DNA of 6,001 bases, taken from contig JALSQP010000163.1 of the NCBI GenBank assembly GCA_026985375.1, forward strand, positions 1 to 6,001. Direction: 5' to 3'. Source of the stretch: Desulfurococcales archaeon. GTDB lineage: Archaea; Thermoproteota; Thermoprotei_A; Sulfolobales; Desulfurococcaceae. Of the stretch, positions 541 through 4,640 are shown piece after piece. The position numbers and the translations under genes are program-made. The notes beneath the pieces were generated by a model. It saw only the letters and a program-made list of their open reading frames with translations, was not told the DNA's origin and ran no database searches. Every line of letters starts with the position of its first letter. Position 1 is the stretch's first letter.

Positions 541-564
541 AATTTTGTGCGTTTGCGCAAAATT
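541..564. repeat. 10-bp inverted repeat at the promoter of the small-gene cluster
   Basis: AATTTTGTGC and GCGCAAAATT are reverse complements except for one position (a T-G wobble), separated by the four bases GTTT. The right arm overlaps the A+T-rich element that best fits a TATA box for the gene at 606. An inverted repeat in this position is typical of an operator where a repressor would block TBP/TFB binding, but no specific regulator can be assigned. Confidence 0.4.
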
Positions 565-601
565 TAATAGTGTGCTATAGCTCAAAATACTTATGGGTGA
601 T
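559..601 (+). promoter_or_regulatory. Putative promoter and ribosome binding site of the 606 gene
   Basis: AAATTTAATA at about 559-568 is the best TATA-like element. A transcription start near 590 would leave a short leader carrying GGTGAT (596-601), four bases before the ATG at 606. The same GGTGAT ribosome binding site precedes apgM, which supports a shared anti-Shine-Dalgarno. The ribosome binding site is convincing; the TATA box is tentative. Confidence 0.45.
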
Positions 602-605
602 AGAA

Positions 606-860
606 ATGGCCTGGTTCCCTGGTTATGGTTGGAGAGGAGGCTGGGGCTGGAGAAGAAGCTGGAGAGGCCCATGGCCTGGTAATGGGCCATTCAGCTACCT
701 ACCGCCGTGGCAGAGACCTGGATGGCTATTCGGAAGAGGAGCATGCTGGTGGCTGCTTGGTGGCCCATGGGGATACTGGGCTAGGACTTGGTATTCCTAT
801 CCAGTACCCTATCCATACGTCCCTCCAGCTTACTACCCATACTATCCATGGGGATGGTGA
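606..860 (+). CDS. Small Trp/Gly/Pro/Tyr-rich protein, DUF5320-like, function unknown
   Basis: An 84-residue protein of extreme composition: by my count 15 Trp, 15 Gly, 15 Pro and 11 Tyr. The N-terminal third is a basic Gly/Trp/Arg region (GWRGGWGWRRSWRGPWPG). The middle has a conserved-looking block, PFSYLPPWQRPGWLFGRGAC at 29-48, with the single cysteine at 47. The C-terminal third is a Tyr/Pro tail ending PYYPWGW. No signal peptide or clear membrane helix is visible, and there is no enzyme motif. The ATG at 606 is preferred over the upstream in-frame ATG at 570 because GGTGAT lies four bases before it. The stop codon lies inside the ribosome binding site of the next gene, so the two are translationally linked. 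From memory it resembles small archaeal proteins grouped with DUF5320, sometimes found near metal-cofactor ATPases; that assignment needs a profile search. Function is unknown. Confidence 0.75.
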   Translation: MAWFPGYGWRGGWGWRRSWRGPWPGNGPFSYLPPWQRPGWLFGRGACWWLLGGPWGYWARTWYSYPVPYPYVPPAYYPYYPWGW

Positions 861-868
861 CAAGTACA

Positions 869-1069
869 ATGTACTGGTGGTATTACCCACCAGTATACAC
901 GCCGTACTACATGTATGATCCTATGGCCATGATGGCATACATGATGCAGTGGATGACCATACCATATTATTATGCACTGTACATGGAGATGTTTAGGGCA
1001 ACTCTGGATGCATGGAGAAAAGCCATAGAGGCAATATCGACTAGTATATCACAGACGACAAAACAGTAA
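869..1069 (+). CDS. Small Tyr/Met-rich protein, function unknown
   Basis: A 66-residue protein whose first 43 residues contain all 10 methionines and all 12 tyrosines, including YDPMAMMAYMMQWMTIP (16-32). This may be an aromatic/Met-rich hydrophobic helix that could bind a soft metal or lie at a membrane. The last 23 residues are a more ordinary polar, Ser/Thr/Lys-rich tail with a short amphipathic helix (TLDAWRKAIEAI). The start is ATG 869, because GGTGA (856-860) sits eight bases upstream; that GGTGA contains the TGA stop of the preceding gene, so co-translation is likely. An in-frame ATG at 854 also exists but has no ribosome binding site. It starts MYWWYYPP, similar in flavour to the protein at 1216 (MSWWYRF). 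No recognised domain; role unknown, probably a partner of its two neighbours. Confidence 0.7.
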   Translation: MYWWYYPPVYTPYYMYDPMAMMAYMMQWMTIPYYYALYMEMFRATLDAWRKAIEAISTSISQTTKQ

Positions 1070-1131
1070 TACTCCGCCATAAACAACTCGTTGCCAGGGT
1101 CTAGACGAAAGATCTAGTCATTAAATAGTTC

Positions 1132-1137
1132 TTTTTT
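1132..1137 (+). terminator. Possible oligo-T terminator after the two-gene unit
   Basis: A run of six T follows the 869-1069 gene at a distance of about 60 bases. Archaeal RNA polymerase can terminate at such U-rich tracts without a strong hairpin. A weak CTAGA/TCTAG stem lies just upstream (about 1101-1117). If active, the next gene at 1216 is transcribed from its own promoter. Confidence 0.35.
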
Positions 1138-1154
1138 ACCAAGTAGACGTAACA

Positions 1155-1164
1155 TAATATATGT
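1155..1164 (+). promoter_or_regulatory. Putative TATA box for the 1216 gene
   Basis: TAATATATGT is a good TATA-like element. It would place a start near 1185-1190 and a leader of about 30 nt bearing the strong GGAGG sequences at 1201-1210. Assigned by position and composition only. Confidence 0.4.
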
Positions 1165-1200
1165 ATTAATGAGGACCTACATGATCGGATATTAAAACAA

Positions 1201-1227
1201 GGAGGGAGGTCCACCTTGTCTTGGTGG
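1201..1227 (+). promoter_or_regulatory. Strong ribosome binding site and start-codon hairpin selecting a TTG start
   Basis: GGAGGGAGGT (1201-1210) contains two overlapping strong Shine-Dalgarno sequences, and the second lies five bases before TTG 1216. This makes the TTG far more likely than the in-frame ATG at 1237, which has none. CCACC (1211-1215) and GGTGG (1223-1227) are perfectly complementary and hold the TTG in a seven-base loop. A further six-base complement of AGGTCC (1207-1212) occurs at 1173-1178. Whether either structure forms at growth temperature is unknown. Confidence 0.5.
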
Positions 1228-1548
1228 TATAGGTTTATGAGGAGAATGTATTATTGGTTGCCGCCACCCTACCCCATTTATCCAGTGTCATCACCTGTTC
1301 CTTACCAGCCATACACTAGCCAGTCTGGACAGCCAAGCGGGCAGGCACAGATGCAGCAACCAGTAGCTCCACCTTATATGCCGCCATATTTCCCCCCGCC
1401 ACCATATCCGCTTCGTCCAGAAGACGAGCTAGCAATGCTCGAGGACTATAAAAAGATCCTCGAGGAAGATCTCAGAGAAATACAGGAAGAACTCAAGAGT
1501 GTAGAGGAAAGGATCAAAGAGCTTAAGAGAATGCTTGGCCAGGAATAA
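1216..1548 (+). CDS. Aromatic/proline-rich protein with C-terminal coiled coil, DUF5320-like
   Basis: A 110-residue protein in three parts. Residues 1-35 are aromatic and basic (MSWWYRFMRRMYYWLPPPYP). Residues 36-68 are a Gln/Pro/Tyr-rich low-complexity linker with PPYMPPYFPPPPYP. Residues 69-108 are a charged helix with a clean a/d heptad pattern (L82, L86, I89, L93, V96, I100, L103, L107), predicting a coiled coil and therefore oligomerisation. A disordered Gly/Pro/aromatic head plus an acidic/basic coiled-coil tail is the layout I recall for DUF5320 proteins. The TTG start is chosen because of the strong GGAGGT five bases upstream. It lies between the two smaller aromatic-rich genes and moeA on the same strand and may form a complex with the former. 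No catalytic motif is visible and its function is unknown. Confidence 0.8.
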   Translation: MSWWYRFMRRMYYWLPPPYPIYPVSSPVPYQPYTSQSGQPSGQAQMQQPVAPPYMPPYFPPPPYPLRPEDELAMLEDYKKILEEDLREIQEELKSVEERIKELKRMLGQE

Positions 1549-1659: not shown

Positions 1660-2913
1660 ATGTATTCCATCTATGAGAAATTATATAAGTATGTTGACCC
1701 CTTTGAAGCCGTGTCATTGCTCATAGACGGGTTCGAGAGAAGAGTAGTAAGGTTAAGACCAGAGAAGAGCGTAGGCTATATCCTCGCTGAACCAGTCTAT
1801 GCAGAGATAGATAGGCCCTATGCTAATCTATCTCATGTGGATGGTTGGGCTGTTAGATCAATAGATACGGTAGGTGCTTCTTCGGAGAGACCTGTCAAGC
1901 TTAAGGTGAGAGACGATGTGGATTCCCGAAGGGCAGACCAGGCAGAGCTCCGGCCAGGCGAGACGATTTTCGTTGAGACAGGATTCCCCATACCCATTAA
2001 TGCTGATGCAGTCATACAGGTCGAGTCAGCCCGTAGAATCGGAAACAATGTCTACATCTACGCACCGGTAACCCGAGGATACAATGTTTTTCCCCGATCC
2101 AGTGATTTCAGGAAAGGAGAAAAACTACTCGATAAAGGTACGAGGATCACTAGCTATGCCGTGAAATTATTAATGGATGCTGGTGTTTGGAGGATAAAGG
2201 TCTACGATAAACCTAAAATAGCTGTCTATAGCACGGGTGTCGAGCTCAAAGAAGAGCCGGCCATGCCCAGCCAATCTTACATACCTGACTCCTCAAGATT
2301 ATTCATAAATCATGTGATCAAGGAGCTCAGAGGGGAAATAATCGATACGGCCAATATACCTGATTCTCATGAATCAATAGCTAGAGTAATAGAGGAGATC
2401 ATAGATGATGTTGACCTTGTAGTAACAATAGGAGGAGTATCCATGGGTCCACGCGATATGACGTGGACAGGGATAAAGAATAGGATAAAGTACAACAGGG
2501 TCTTTAGAGGAGTAAAAATGCATCCGGGAAGATCAACAAGCGGTTTCAGGACAAGCACTGCATCAATACTTAATCTTCCGGGACTGCCTCAGTCAACCAT
2601 AGCAGCGGCATTATTAGTACTAGCCCCAGTCGTACGTTATATGTCCGGGGCCGACCCGAACATAGATAAGCCAACACTGTACGTGAAGCTTGCCAAAGAT
2701 TATCGGAGCGACAAATACTTGGGATTTTACAGGATAAGATACGTGGAGATCATGGGTGGAGAAGCAGTCGTATGGGAGGATAACCCATCCTATAACGTCT
2801 TTACGCCACTAAGAACTAGCGGCATAACAACAATACCCCCCGGTAAGAAGCCATTGAAGGGAGAAATGATACCAGTGTATAGACCAAGGATGATCTATCC
2901 AGAGCCGAGCTAA
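1660..2913 (+). CDS. moeA: MoeA-family molybdopterin molybdenumtransferase, divergent
   Basis: MoeA uses MoO4 (or WO4) to insert metal into adenylated molybdopterin, the last common step of Mo/W cofactor synthesis. This 417-residue protein has the family core in order: SHVDGWAVR (57-65; D61 matches E. coli D59), ETGFPIP (106-112; T107 matches T100), SSDFRKG with D149 (E. coli D142), STGVEL (191-196; E195 matches E188) and GGVSMGPRD (258-266; D266 matches D259), then a C-terminal beta domain (about 338-408). Two loops are unusual: the typical KPGKP is HPGRS at 288-292, and GLPGNPVS is replaced by NLPGLPQS (305-312). These suggest a specialised paralogue. ATG 1660 is preferred: GGTG lies nine bases upstream, and a weak TATA-like ATATTTT near -27 would also fit a leaderless start. 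An in-frame GTG at 1648 would add four residues. It is 63 bp upstream of the Tfx-family gene. Confidence 0.9.
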   Translation: MYSIYEKLYKYVDPFEAVSLLIDGFERRVVRLRPEKSVGYILAEPVYAEIDRPYANLSHVDGWAVRSIDTVGASSERPVKLKVRDDVDSRRADQAELRPGETIFVETGFPIPINADAVIQVESARRIGNNVYIYAPVTRGYNVFPRSSDFRKGEKLLDKGTRITSYAVKLLMDAGVWRIKVYDKPKIAVYSTGVELKEEPAMPSQSYIPDSSRLFINHVIKELRGEIIDTANIPDSHESIARVIEEIIDDVDLVVTIGGVSMGPRDMTWTGIKNRIKYNRVFRGVKMHPGRSTSGFRTSTASILNLPGLPQSTIAAALLVLAPVVRYMSGADPNIDKPTLYVKLAKDYRSDKYLGFYRIRYVEIMGGEAVVWEDNPSYNVFTPLRTSGITTIPPGKKPLKGEMIPVYRPRMIYPEPS

Positions 2914-2947: not shown

Positions 2948-2988
2948 TTTATCAAAGTAAATTATCCCTGATAGATTATGGAGGAGGA
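2948..2988 (+). promoter_or_regulatory. Start region of the Tfx gene: possible leaderless promoter and internal ribosome binding site
   Basis: No Shine-Dalgarno precedes ATG 2978, while TTTATC (2949-2954) lies at about the distance expected for a leaderless transcript. The ATG itself runs into GGAGGAGG (2980-2987), a strong ribosome binding site five bases before an in-frame TTG at 2993. The neighbour at 1216 uses exactly such a GGAGG-plus-TTG start, so two starts five codons apart are possible. Confidence 0.35.
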
Positions 2989-3466
2989 CAATTTGAAGCT
3001 AGGGTTTTTCACTGAGCGGCAGATAAAAATCCTATATCTTCGAAACAAGGGACTTTTACTAAGAGATGTCGCGGAGATCATGAAGACGAGCTACCAGAAC
3101 ATATCATTGATCGAGAAGCGCGTGTATAGGAATGTTAAGCTAGCCAAGGACACGATCCTCATATATAGGATCGTGACATCGCCTGTAAAGATATTGCTTC
3201 CAGCGGGATCTCATTTGGCGGAGATTCCGAGAAAGGTCATACTAGGGTGCGATAAGAAGGGAGTGAAGCTTAAAGCGGATTTCACACTCATTTATAAGCT
3301 TATAAGATTTAGGACATCCGAAAACATAAGGGGCCAATACATAATCAAGCCCATACTCCTTCTAGTGGATCTCCAAGGTCAGCCACACGTCTATGATTAT
3401 GAGAATGTAGAACCCTTCATTAGGGAGGTAGAGAGGATCATAGGAGAAAAGCTAATAGAGCAATAA
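2978..3466 (+). CDS. tfx: Tfx-family DNA-binding transcriptional regulator
   Basis: A 162-residue protein matching the archaeal Tfx family. Residues 10-52 form a sigma-70 region 4/LuxR-like helix-turn-helix: FFTERQIKILYLRNKG, then LLLRDVAEIMKTSYQNISLI (26-45) with the recognition helix about 38-47, and the family signature ISLIEKRVYRNVKLAKDT. Residues 60-160 form the Tfx C-terminal domain (SPVKILLPAGSHLAEIP at 68-84, then a beta-rich stretch). In Methanothermobacter, Tfx binds DNA downstream of the promoter of the molybdenum formylmethanofuran dehydrogenase operon, so its position 64 bases after moeA on the same strand is suggestive of Mo/W-responsive control. Direct ligand binding is not evident from sequence. 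The ATG start is given; a TTG at 2993 with a strong ribosome binding site is an alternative that would remove five residues. Family assignment is confident; the regulated genes are inferred. Confidence 0.9.
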   Translation: MEEDNLKLGFFTERQIKILYLRNKGLLLRDVAEIMKTSYQNISLIEKRVYRNVKLAKDTILIYRIVTSPVKILLPAGSHLAEIPRKVILGCDKKGVKLKADFTLIYKLIRFRTSENIRGQYIIKPILLLVDLQGQPHVYDYENVEPFIREVERIIGEKLIEQ

Positions 3467-3469
3467 AGT

Positions 3470-3540
3470 ACGTCGGCCTCCGGCTTCTCCACATCCCCGG
3501 CTAAGGTTCAGAGACTCTCTTTTCCCCACCCACGATGAAG
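3470..3540. other. G+C-rich intergenic island between convergent genes, possible ncRNA or IS end
   Basis: The segment from about 3471 to 3505 is roughly two thirds G+C, well above the surrounding A+T-rich DNA, and has no credible ORF. In A+T-biased hyperthermophiles such islands often mark structured RNAs. On the minus strand it reads CCGGGGATGTGGAGAAGCCG followed by GAGGCC, which reminds me of the 3' ends of archaeal IS200/IS605 tnpB genes (the omega-RNA region). I found only short stems (for example GCC-TCC-GGC), so a folded RNA is not demonstrated. CTCTCTTTTCC at 3516-3526 may serve as a terminator for the Tfx gene. Confidence 0.3.
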
Positions 3541-3584
3541 TATTTATCTTGGCAGGAAAATAATGTTGACGGGACAAATAAGAA

Positions 3585-3902
3585 CTATTTGTTACGCCTA
3601 GTATTATGGGTCTTCATAGCCTCGATTACTGCTTTGTATGGCTGGGGAGCCGAGCCTGTACACTCCCCGGTTGACAGGCTTGAGTCGATGCAGACCCTTA
3701 TCAAACCCTTTTTAATCAGCATCGAAACTATATCCTCGATCTCTGGGCAATACATCCCTGTATAGGTGAGCCTCCAGTCACAATCCTTGAAACAAGAAGT
3801 TAAACCATACTTAAAGGTATAAAGGTAAATAAGGTTATGGAGAGTTATCCTCGAAGGGTTATAGATCTCTATAAGTTCCAATATTATCCTTGTCTTCAAC
3901 AT
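3585..3902 (-). CDS. Small winged-helix-like protein with Panacea/YwgA-type signature
   Basis: A 105-residue protein. Residues 5-70 follow the pattern of archaeal Panacea (DUF4065)/YwgA-like proteins: helical RIILELIEIY, a second helix LHNLIYLYTFKYGL, then YTGMYCPEIEDIVSMLIKKG (48-67) followed by LIRV, which corresponds to the family's Y-x-G-P-Y-S-x-E-L ... L-x-x-x-G-L-I motif. Five cysteines (37, 41, 52, 71, 81) are notable for so small a protein and might bind a metal or form disulfides. The C-terminal 30 residues are not recognisable. ATG 3902 has a G-rich GGCGGGG stretch five bases upstream and a TATA-like element further up. It converges on the Tfx gene. The overlapping plus-strand frame at 3535-3765 lacks any recognisable motif and is judged spurious. 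A regulatory or toxin-antitoxin-type role is possible but unproven. Confidence 0.6.
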   Translation of the reverse strand: MLKTRIILELIEIYNPSRITLHNLIYLYTFKYGLTSCFKDCDWRLTYTGMYCPEIEDIVSMLIKKGLIRVCIDSSLSTGECTGSAPQPYKAVIEAMKTHNTRRNK

Positions 3903-3934
3903 CTATTCCCCGCCCACATATAGGAGAGCTTAGT

Positions 3935-3944
3935 CTTAAAAAGA
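3935..3944 (-). promoter_or_regulatory. Putative TATA box for the 3902 gene
   Basis: On the minus strand TCTTTTTAAG is a TATA-like element about 33-42 bases before the ATG. It would yield a leader of about 15-18 nt containing the GGCGGGG stretch. Assigned by eye. Confidence 0.35.
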
Positions 3945-4141
3945 AGAACTAGTAAAAATACCTTCCATAACTCGGAAACAAGAAGATATGGATGAAACAA
4001 CAATTGTCGACAGTGGCTATATACAACATATTATATACAACTATACAGAGCGCATTGTTTTCCGAACAATTTATTCATATCTCAATTGTATAGCAATATA
4101 TGTATCAAATAGATAGAATAATAAAAACATATTATATTGTG
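3945..4141. other. A+T-rich intergenic stretch with short repeats, no clear gene
   Basis: About 200 bases of very A+T-rich DNA downstream (in minus-strand sense) of the tnpB remnant. TATATACAAC occurs twice (4018-4027 and 4032-4041), and its last nine bases recur at 4437-4445 at the other border of the remnant. ATTGTT/AACAAT (4054-4059 and 4065-4070) can form a six-bp hairpin. A 42-codon ATG frame at 3988-4116 has no ribosome binding site or recognisable content and is not called as a gene. This may be residual insertion-sequence DNA. Confidence 0.4.
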
Positions 4142-4147
4142 CTATAT
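4089..4147 (-). repeat. Imperfect inverted repeat at the 3' end of the tnpB remnant
   Basis: TATAGCAATATA (4089-4100) pairs with TATATTGTGCTATA (4134-4147) apart from a two-base bulge, with a 33-base loop. The right arm overlaps the stop codon of the tnpB remnant. It could be a leftover of an insertion-sequence end or of an omega-RNA, but A+T-rich DNA readily gives such repeats by chance. Confidence 0.25.
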
Positions 4148-4445
4148 TTTCACATAAGTGGTTGCCCGTGCTTTGTATTTTCGATATTTTGAAGGCGATG
4201 AGTTCTTGTATGGTCTTCTCCTGTTTGGGTCGGGTTTTCGTCCCCGCATTGAGGGGGCTGTTGGGGCTCTACTTACCGCTTCAGCCCCTCATACGCAGGT
4301 ATTTGAGAGTCAGATTCCATGGAGCTATTGTGTCCCCGGCAACGATATATCCGCTAGGTATTCTAACCCACCTGTAGTTGAGGAACTCCGGCCTACCACC
4401 TCTGGGTAAAGTTCTTGATGTATTCCCTACACTAACATATACAAC
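4142..4445 (-). pseudogene. tnpB: Decayed C-terminal fragment of tnpB (IS200/IS605 OrfB)
   Basis: TnpB is the RNA-guided nuclease carried by IS200/IS605 elements. On the minus strand, 4445-4284 encodes 54 residues that follow the TnpB C-terminus: VVYVSVGNTSRT, then LPRGG where CPxCG is expected, YRWVRIPSGYIV where CPxCGYI is expected, and GDTIAPWNLTLKYLRMRG, the RuvC-III region (consensus DRDxxAAxN) with one Asp kept. It ends at a TGA (4283-4281); in another frame a tail with APTAPSMRGRKPDPN, resembling the TnpB C-terminal extension, continues to a TAG at 4142, so there is at least one frameshift. All four zinc-ribbon cysteines are lost, one by deletion, and an in-frame TGA (4448-4446) lies immediately upstream. 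The N-terminal three quarters is absent. The fragment is richer in G+C than its flanks. It is inactive debris of an old insertion. Confidence 0.75.
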
Positions 4446-4448
4446 TCA

Positions 4449-4640
4449 TATCTCCTCCAATAGTGCCGTGATAGATTATGATCTATTTACAGTAGATGCA
4501 TTCTATTGATGTCCTCGAATATGGTGAAGAATATATTAGAAAGAATTGCTGAGAATATTTGCTGATAACAATGCAGACCATACTTTCCTTAATAGTTGTG
4601 CTTAGTGCTTATCCTTCGTTTCAGTAAATGTTTTTCATGA
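4449..4640. other. Intergenic region between tnpB remnant and HD gene, no feature seen
   Basis: A+T-rich DNA with stops in all frames. In the tnpB frame a few codons beyond the TGA read ALLEEI, which could be further tnpB residue but is too short to count. No promoter, RNA gene or convincing terminator for the HD gene could be identified. Confidence 0.5.

Follow-up and report, generated by a model that had tools for sequence, protein, structure and literature searches.

Among the described systems, those closest to the locus analysed here are built around the NifX-domain proteins IssA and orange protein (ORP). IssA of Pyrococcus furiosus carries a tail in which cationic, aromatic and Gly residues come after a Pro-rich stretch (7 cationic, 14 aromatic, 15 Gly and 11 Pro of 70), and which, according to the portion of the report available, is predicted to be unstructured and is proposed to wrap an anionic thioferrate chain (PMC5524996). 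ORP of Desulfovibrio is a Nitro_FeMo-Co protein accompanied by MinD-type ATPases, as far as the available text describes it (PMC6345978), and in Archaeoglobus fulgidus a NifX/CbiA gene set linked to the ORP genes shows constitutively high expression, in a report whose available part makes no mention of the three genes considered below (PMC3949148). Two Pfam families are also relevant, namely DUF5320 (PF17253) and DUF134 (PF02001), the latter comprising sigma70-region-4-like helix-turn-helix proteins. No operator for DUF134 or DUF5320 genes is described in the titles and the opening parts of the abstracts of the papers listed for either family, in a literature made up mainly of open-access papers. 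Likewise, no paper was found there that links DUF134 to the 'dinitrogenase iron-molybdenum cofactor', the name of that cofactor to a Trp-rich protein, or IPR003731 to a palindrome.

The window, i.e. the whole stretch of DNA that was analysed, is 6,001 nucleotides long (contig C163 of genome G000) and belongs to an archaeal draft genome, 0.99 Mb in size and 69% complete. The first-pass annotation had described in it three consecutive small genes of extreme composition with real ribosome binding sites and a tight coupling of the first two, and these features are borne out for all the genes concerned. Gene A (606..860, plus strand; ATG at 606, stop at 858-860) encodes an 84-residue protein rich in Trp, Gly, Pro, Tyr and Arg (W 15 or 17.9%, P 15, G 15, Y 11, R 7) with 29 aromatic and no acidic residues and a pI of 9.9, and is preceded by the ribosome-binding-like stretch GGTGATA at 596-602. 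Gene B (857..1069, plus strand) encodes 70 residues from GTG 857, a start that overlaps the stop of A (GTGA), or 66 residues from ATG 869; the shorter form has 12 Tyr and 10 Met, with a Tyr/Met-rich start, and a ribosome-binding-like GGGGATG lies at 850-856. Gene C (1216..1548, plus strand; TTG at 1216) encodes 110 residues, including 20 Pro and 11 Tyr, in which a Pro/Tyr-rich start is followed by an acidic, DUF5320-type coiled-coil-like C-terminus (pI 4.6), with AAGGAGGGAGG at 1199-1209 as its ribosome-binding-like stretch.

Relatives were examined in a comparison set of 61 genomes, the window genome (G000) included, and in named genomes scanned with the alignment of A. From the 209 relatives that the latter scan yielded, the best 80 were retained as loci; these come from Desulfurococcales, Thermofilum, Bathy-, Hades-, Thor-, Hermod-, Brock- and Nezhaarchaeota, Thermococcus, Methanocellales, Archaeoglobi and others, and at least nine of them probably represent the same genomes as members of the 61-genome set. 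Head and coil regions in these 80 loci were called with Hidden Markov Models (HMMs) made here from the alignments, and neighbours were counted with further HMMs of our own, for which the local members of DUF134 and Nitro_FeMo-Co served as input.

Gene A has matches in 37 of the 61 genomes (own counted), to which a motif scan adds two (G049 and G059), and its best named match, at 95% identity, lies on a contig of a Desulfurococcales archaeon (JALVYU010000031.1). The protein bears an archaeal 'head', GPWPGxGPFSYLPPWQRPGWxxGRGxCWW, for which there is no Pfam name. In a 64-row alignment (A4) the positions P24, G25, G27, L32, P33, P34, W35, R37, P38, G39, W40 and G43 are invariant and C47 is nearly so, the Cys being missing in some relatives (L085, L094, L104); 48 of the 64 rows are free of acidic residues. 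Neither Pfam nor NCBIfam gave any match to A even at an E-value of 10, and the gathering score of DUF5320 was not reached. Structure prediction from the 64-row alignment as a single chain (AF2) returned no confident fold (mean pLDDT 48.4), and A alone is thus predicted to be unfolded, the failure of a single-chain prediction being weak evidence for disorder. A fold search of a viral library with this model found nothing, as expected from a model of such low confidence, and a profile of A with its fused relatives had no convincing relative among the solved structures (four matches at E-values of 0.27-0.79, two of them prefoldin coils). In one database relative (P0103) the head is joined to a zinc ribbon and not to a coil (precomputed PF13240, PF12773 and PF17032), and PF17032 is listed for P0104 too.

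The connection to DUF5320 that the first-pass annotation had suggested is borne out through the coil of C and through relatives of A. The coil of C (residues 57-95 only) scores 21.1 bits against the DUF5320 cut-off of 27 (E-value 7e-4), which is sub-threshold, while its relative in G045 clears the cut-off with 30.8 bits; PF17253 had no match at an E-value of 0.001 in the whole of the window genome. C has matches in 26 of the 61 genomes (own counted). In G051 (L091) and G044 (L100) head and coil occur in one open reading frame, as they do in the database proteins P0013, P0014, P0040 and P0095, and among the best 80 of the 209 named loci 21 are fused and 42 are split on one strand with the parts at most 1 kb apart. 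PF17253 is present on 28 of 120 database relatives of A, among the matches listed, and those read carry the coil in the same chain. At L194, too, a gene has the start typical of Pfam DUF5320 (66.9 bits, profile positions 1-63) but lacks the coil, which our own coil HMM places in a separate gene after it; DUF5320 is absent from the best 25 of 30 Pfam families for this second gene. Since elsewhere head and coil form a single protein, the interpretation of A and C as the head and coiled-coil halves of a split DUF5320-like protein is well supported by these sequence comparisons. The genes of the window and DUF5320 share the coiled coil of C and single-gene relatives consisting of a head and a DUF5320 coil, and relatives of A in other genomes have the neighbours of DUF5320 genes, DUF134 and Nitro_FeMo-Co. 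They differ in that A lacks a coil and is unrecognised, in that the head has SYLPPWQRPGW where L193 and L195 have starts of the GPMTGRGAGYC type, and in that the protein is spread in the window over two genes with B in between. At L198:1498-1734, L204:1444-1728 and L200:1432-1686 the coil was observed behind short Trp-rich heads of other kinds, RGWWCPRHPWPP being an example; these loci hold DUF134, and L198 and L200 also hold Nitro_FeMo-Co genes.

Gene B has matches in 10 of the 61 genomes (own counted) and none in Pfam or NCBIfam. It forms a small family by itself, marked by a conserved DP, by a PYYY-like stretch and by E...W.K, and a single long helix is predicted for it (residues 22-69, mean pLDDT 76.7). 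In three genomes of the same genus (G002, G004, G005) A and C are separated by 18-33 nucleotides, with no match to B in between. Judged from this distribution, B is a lineage-specific middle gene outside the conserved core; gene order is kept in related genomes, and the core found across archaea consists of A and C, split or fused, without B.

Two neighbours recur beside the head genes, DUF134 and Nitro_FeMo-Co proteins (each assigned through one member searched against Pfam). Of the 37 genomes with a match to A, 25 have one or the other at a distance of at most 1 kb, against a rough chance expectation of 0.4% per genome. Within 3 kb of the head in the best 80 of the 209 named loci, DUF134 is found in 53, Nitro_FeMo-Co in 42 and either in 65; the remaining 15, some of them at contig ends, have neither. 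A DUF134 gene is present in 37 of the 39 genomes with A versus 4 of the 22 without it (counts uncorrected for relatedness). Starting from DUF5320 the same company appears: among the best 20 DUF5320 loci that a sample of 200 genomes of the phylum gave, DUF134 and Nitro_FeMo-Co occur in 18 each and at least one of them in all 20. Moreover, a Nitro_FeMo-Co domain and a DUF5320 coil are joined in one protein in eight open reading frames (seven distinct), two of which (L196 and L208) exceed both Pfam cut-offs; the search that gave these eight coil-NifX fusions found no head-NifX fusion. In a Thermococcus locus (L115) the end of a NifX-domain gene coincides with the start of the head gene, and the NifX protein ends in PWRWW.

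A third, less constant associate is a MinD-type ATPase, a cluster member of which occurs in 33 of the best 80 named loci, the one member tested having 4Fe-4S domains (Pfam). Matches to such ATPases are present in 15 of the 20 genomes with split A and C versus 5 of the 41 others, a partial link; matches of this type number two each in G001, G004 and G005 and one in G002, with none in G003 or the window genome (69% complete). Rarer neighbours in the best 80 loci are FeoB (7), DtxR-type (9), metallo-beta-lactamase-fold (8) and radical SAM (9) proteins. In the sister genomes an operon of Nitro_FeMo-Co and DUF134 genes lies upstream of A, at 1.8-2.2 kb in G004 and G005 and at 8.4-10.1 kb in G001 and G002; such neighbours are unseen in the window because the contig ends 605 nucleotides upstream of A. 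The window genome had no match to DUF134, to a stand-alone NifX protein or to a MinD-type ATPase, which its incompleteness may explain. Compared with solved structures, the NifX-domain partner of G005 is related to 2wfb, the Desulfovibrio orange protein (E-value 4.9e-6), and to 1eo1, MTH1175 (1.4e-7), while the DUF134 protein of the same genome has no relative at E-values of 0.01 or below. On the evidence of gene order, a module of head genes with DUF134 and NifX-domain genes is well supported.

Other arrangements of the Nitro_FeMo-Co domain were noticed in the same genomes. In the window genome (L257:739-2025, contig C147) a cation-efflux transporter carries it as a C-terminal fusion (Pfam 63.8 and 41.9 bits), and Nitro_FeMo-Co matches in frames of 429-435 residues in G001, G003, G004 and G005 suggest the same fusion. 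At L254:2877-5156 of G008 the palindrome described below precedes a Nitro_FeMo-Co gene, whose product is extended at its N-terminus by a Gly/Arg-rich stretch, followed by two consecutive MinD-type ATPase genes, the first of which carries 4Fe-4S domains (Pfam); this is an ORP-like operon in an archaeon.

The region before A holds two copies, each with one mismatch, of the palindrome TGTGCN4GCACA, which flank a TATA-like box. The first predicted operator copy (546..559, plus strand; TGTGCGTTTGCGCA) lies directly 5' of the TATA-like AAAATTTAATAG and is common to G001, G004 and G005; the second (571..584, plus strand; TGTGCTATAGCTCA) is exact in G002. The 68 nucleotides 5' of A share 97-99% identity with the corresponding stretch of G001, G004 and G005 and 57%, ungapped, with that of G002, whereas the 92 nucleotides further upstream are 25-38% identical in ungapped comparison. 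With at most one mismatch, the palindrome precedes 65 of 93 deduplicated head genes, made up of 19 of 32 from the order set and 46 of 61 from the named set; the reversed pattern does so in none of the 93 and base shuffles in 1 of 930. The case rests on position and comparison, as the palindrome count within the window alone is not significant; the number of sites by itself also says little, since the 61 genomes hold 34 exact palindromes versus 19 for the reversed control, and with one mismatch and an A/T centre the genus has 17 sites versus 25 for the control. An all-A/T centre is present in 16 of the 34 exact sites, and 12 of these 16 immediately precede a head or Nitro_FeMo-Co gene; of the other four, one is by a metallo-beta-lactamase-fold-like gene (by eye), one is intergenic near a transporter-like gene and two are inside coding sequence. 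Two of the 18 exact sites without such a centre (G049, G059) precede A. A near-operator site shared by G000, G001, G004 and G005, inside a gene that by eye resembles translation factor 5A, was taken as chance.

An exact palindrome also precedes the Nitro_FeMo-Co gene in G001, G002, G004, G005 and G008, that is, in the sisters, the Nitro_FeMo-Co/DUF134 operon. Its presence follows the recognition helix of the DUF134 protein, being found with 38 of 44 proteins that have SRGT[LVI]WR and with none of the 15 that have another helix (Fisher p 1.4e-9, uncorrected for relatedness), 20 of the 79 DUF134 genes having no head upstream region to score. From these sequence patterns we infer that DUF134 binds TGTGCN4GCACA and co-regulates both operons; a sigma70-region-4-like protein encoded beside head genes would thereby differ from DUF134 as described in the papers listed in having a predicted operator.

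Taken with the described systems, these observations make A and C, with B as a lineage-specific addition, likely helpers of an IssA/ORP-like NifX-domain protein in binding, storing or delivering an anionic metal sulfide, most likely iron-sulfur, a reading to which we assign a probability of about 0.5. Counting against it are the lack of the near-invariant Cys of A in some relatives, the failure to find a head-NifX fusion, the 15 loci with neither partner nearby and the partners missing from the window genome. The earlier suggestion that the proteins may form a complex is best read in its metal-linked form, given the NifX-domain and DUF134 context; the gene context gave no support for membrane association or RNA binding. 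Like IssA, as far as it is described in the part available (PMC5524996), the system combines NifX-domain partner genes with a cationic, Trp/Gly/Arg/Pro-rich chain, predicted for A to be unstructured. It differs in that the tail-like chain is a separate gene, A, B and C having no match to the NifX domain (IPR003731) and a separate NifX-domain gene being present in the sister genomes, and in that thioferrate binding was tested for IssA, whereas A is likened to it by composition and not by sequence comparison. With ORP it shares a Nitro_FeMo-Co protein related to 2wfb and MinD-type ATPases near the head genes; it differs in being archaeal and in adding DUF134 and the head and coil proteins. Unlike for ORP, no sigma54 control is expected in an archaeal module.

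Because A has the chemistry of the tail without a NifX domain, and AF2 finds no fold for it, it is proposed to act as an IssA-like tail in trans. It would be a loose, free-standing scaffold that holds metal sulfide within an ORP-like module under the control of DUF134, and the cationic, acid-free, aromatic and presumably unfolded chain would wrap a thioferrate chain or an anionic cluster. The acidic coil of C, possibly together with the helix of B, may be the assembly piece that docks A to the NifX-domain partner. The metal could be iron alone, or Mo, W or Cu could be included, and metal-sulfide binding by A is suggested by this analogy. More tentatively, and with rather lower odds, a whole archaeal family of disordered Trp/Arg 'wrap' proteins might coat an anionic metal-sulfide polymer made on the NifX-domain partner, as an IssA in two or three pieces that the DUF5320 coil brings together and that is switched by a metal-sulfide-responsive DUF134 through the operator TGTGCN4GCACA, common to archaea from Desulfurococcales through Asgard archaea and Archaeoglobi. 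If true, DUF5320, DUF134 and the unnamed Trp-rich head family would gain one role in archaeal metal-sulfur handling, there would be a reason for a cell to pay for a protein with 18% tryptophan, and the predicted operator would make the regulon open to a simple binding assay.

An unlikely alternative is that A-C serve the metabolism of the molybdopterin (Mo or W) cofactor specifically. Downstream of C, on the same strand, the window has a MoeA-like gene (1672..2913; listed open reading frame start 1648) and a gene for a Tfx-family DNA-binding regulator (2978..3466), and such genes lie 3' of C in the window and in all four other same-genus loci that were read; the Nitro_FeMo-Co proteins owe their name to a Mo cofactor, and the orange protein binds a Mo-Cu cluster according to the title of a cited reference. 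The linkage was downgraded as a key to function, since it hardly extends beyond the genus: outside it, the best 80 of the 209 loci show no match to tfx and a single MoeA-like gene (L142, about 3 kb away, 26% identity), and FeoB and DtxR-type proteins, among the recurrent neighbours there, are linked to iron.

A second alternative takes A for a nucleic-acid binder, with an Arg/Gly/aromatic chain for RNA or G-quadruplex DNA and DUF134 as its DNA-binding partner. A is indeed rich in Arg, Gly and Trp, and a screen for G-quadruplex motifs in Methanosarcina mazei lists, in the part available, a DUF134 and a DUF5320 protein (PMC7565180). The same text indicates that the screen matched a composition-biased motif and that these proteins are known there from the motif alone and not from binding (PMC7565180), and the gene context and the coil-NifX fusions favour metal-sulfur proteins, so that this alternative appears improbable. 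The extreme Pro/Tyr/Trp composition and the long helix predicted for B would also suit structural or envelope-associated proteins, such as an aromatic-rich matrix held together by coiled coils; with DUF134 and NifX-domain genes recurrent among the annotated neighbours and no envelope genes so, this is very doubtful.

Between the window genome and its sisters the dN/dS ratios (NG86) are 0.069-0.137 for A (four pairs), 0.059 for B (one pair) and 0.069-0.130 for C (three pairs), synonymous sites being saturated in the fourth pair of C (with G002); among the remaining pairs no value exceeds 0.264 (A, G001-G004; three versus three changes). A, B and C are therefore real and evolve under purifying selection, with dN/dS at about 0.06-0.14, far from the value near 1 that the first-pass annotation had named as grounds for doubt. 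That the genes are spurious low-complexity frames, a notion to which the extreme composition and the lack of Pfam or NCBIfam matches for A and B might lend colour, is close to excluded by these ratios, the invariant core across archaea, the ribosome-binding sites and the promoter block that is 97-99% identical in three sisters.

The rest of the window carries on its minus strand an apgM gene truncated by the contig end and an HD-domain gene. A search of the window against Rfam gave nothing at gathering scores, and a scan for sigma70-type promoters, which found fewer promoter-like sites than in shuffles, was set aside as unsuited to an archaeon; a scan against viral contigs gave a single weak match (38%). 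A region of about 1.1 kb at 3470-4640 has short open reading frames only, with no recognised gene and no Rfam match. Within it, a 105-residue frame on the minus strand (3585-3902), for which Pfam gave no convincing match, has relatives at the equivalent place in the four other same-genus loci read, forming a cluster of five.
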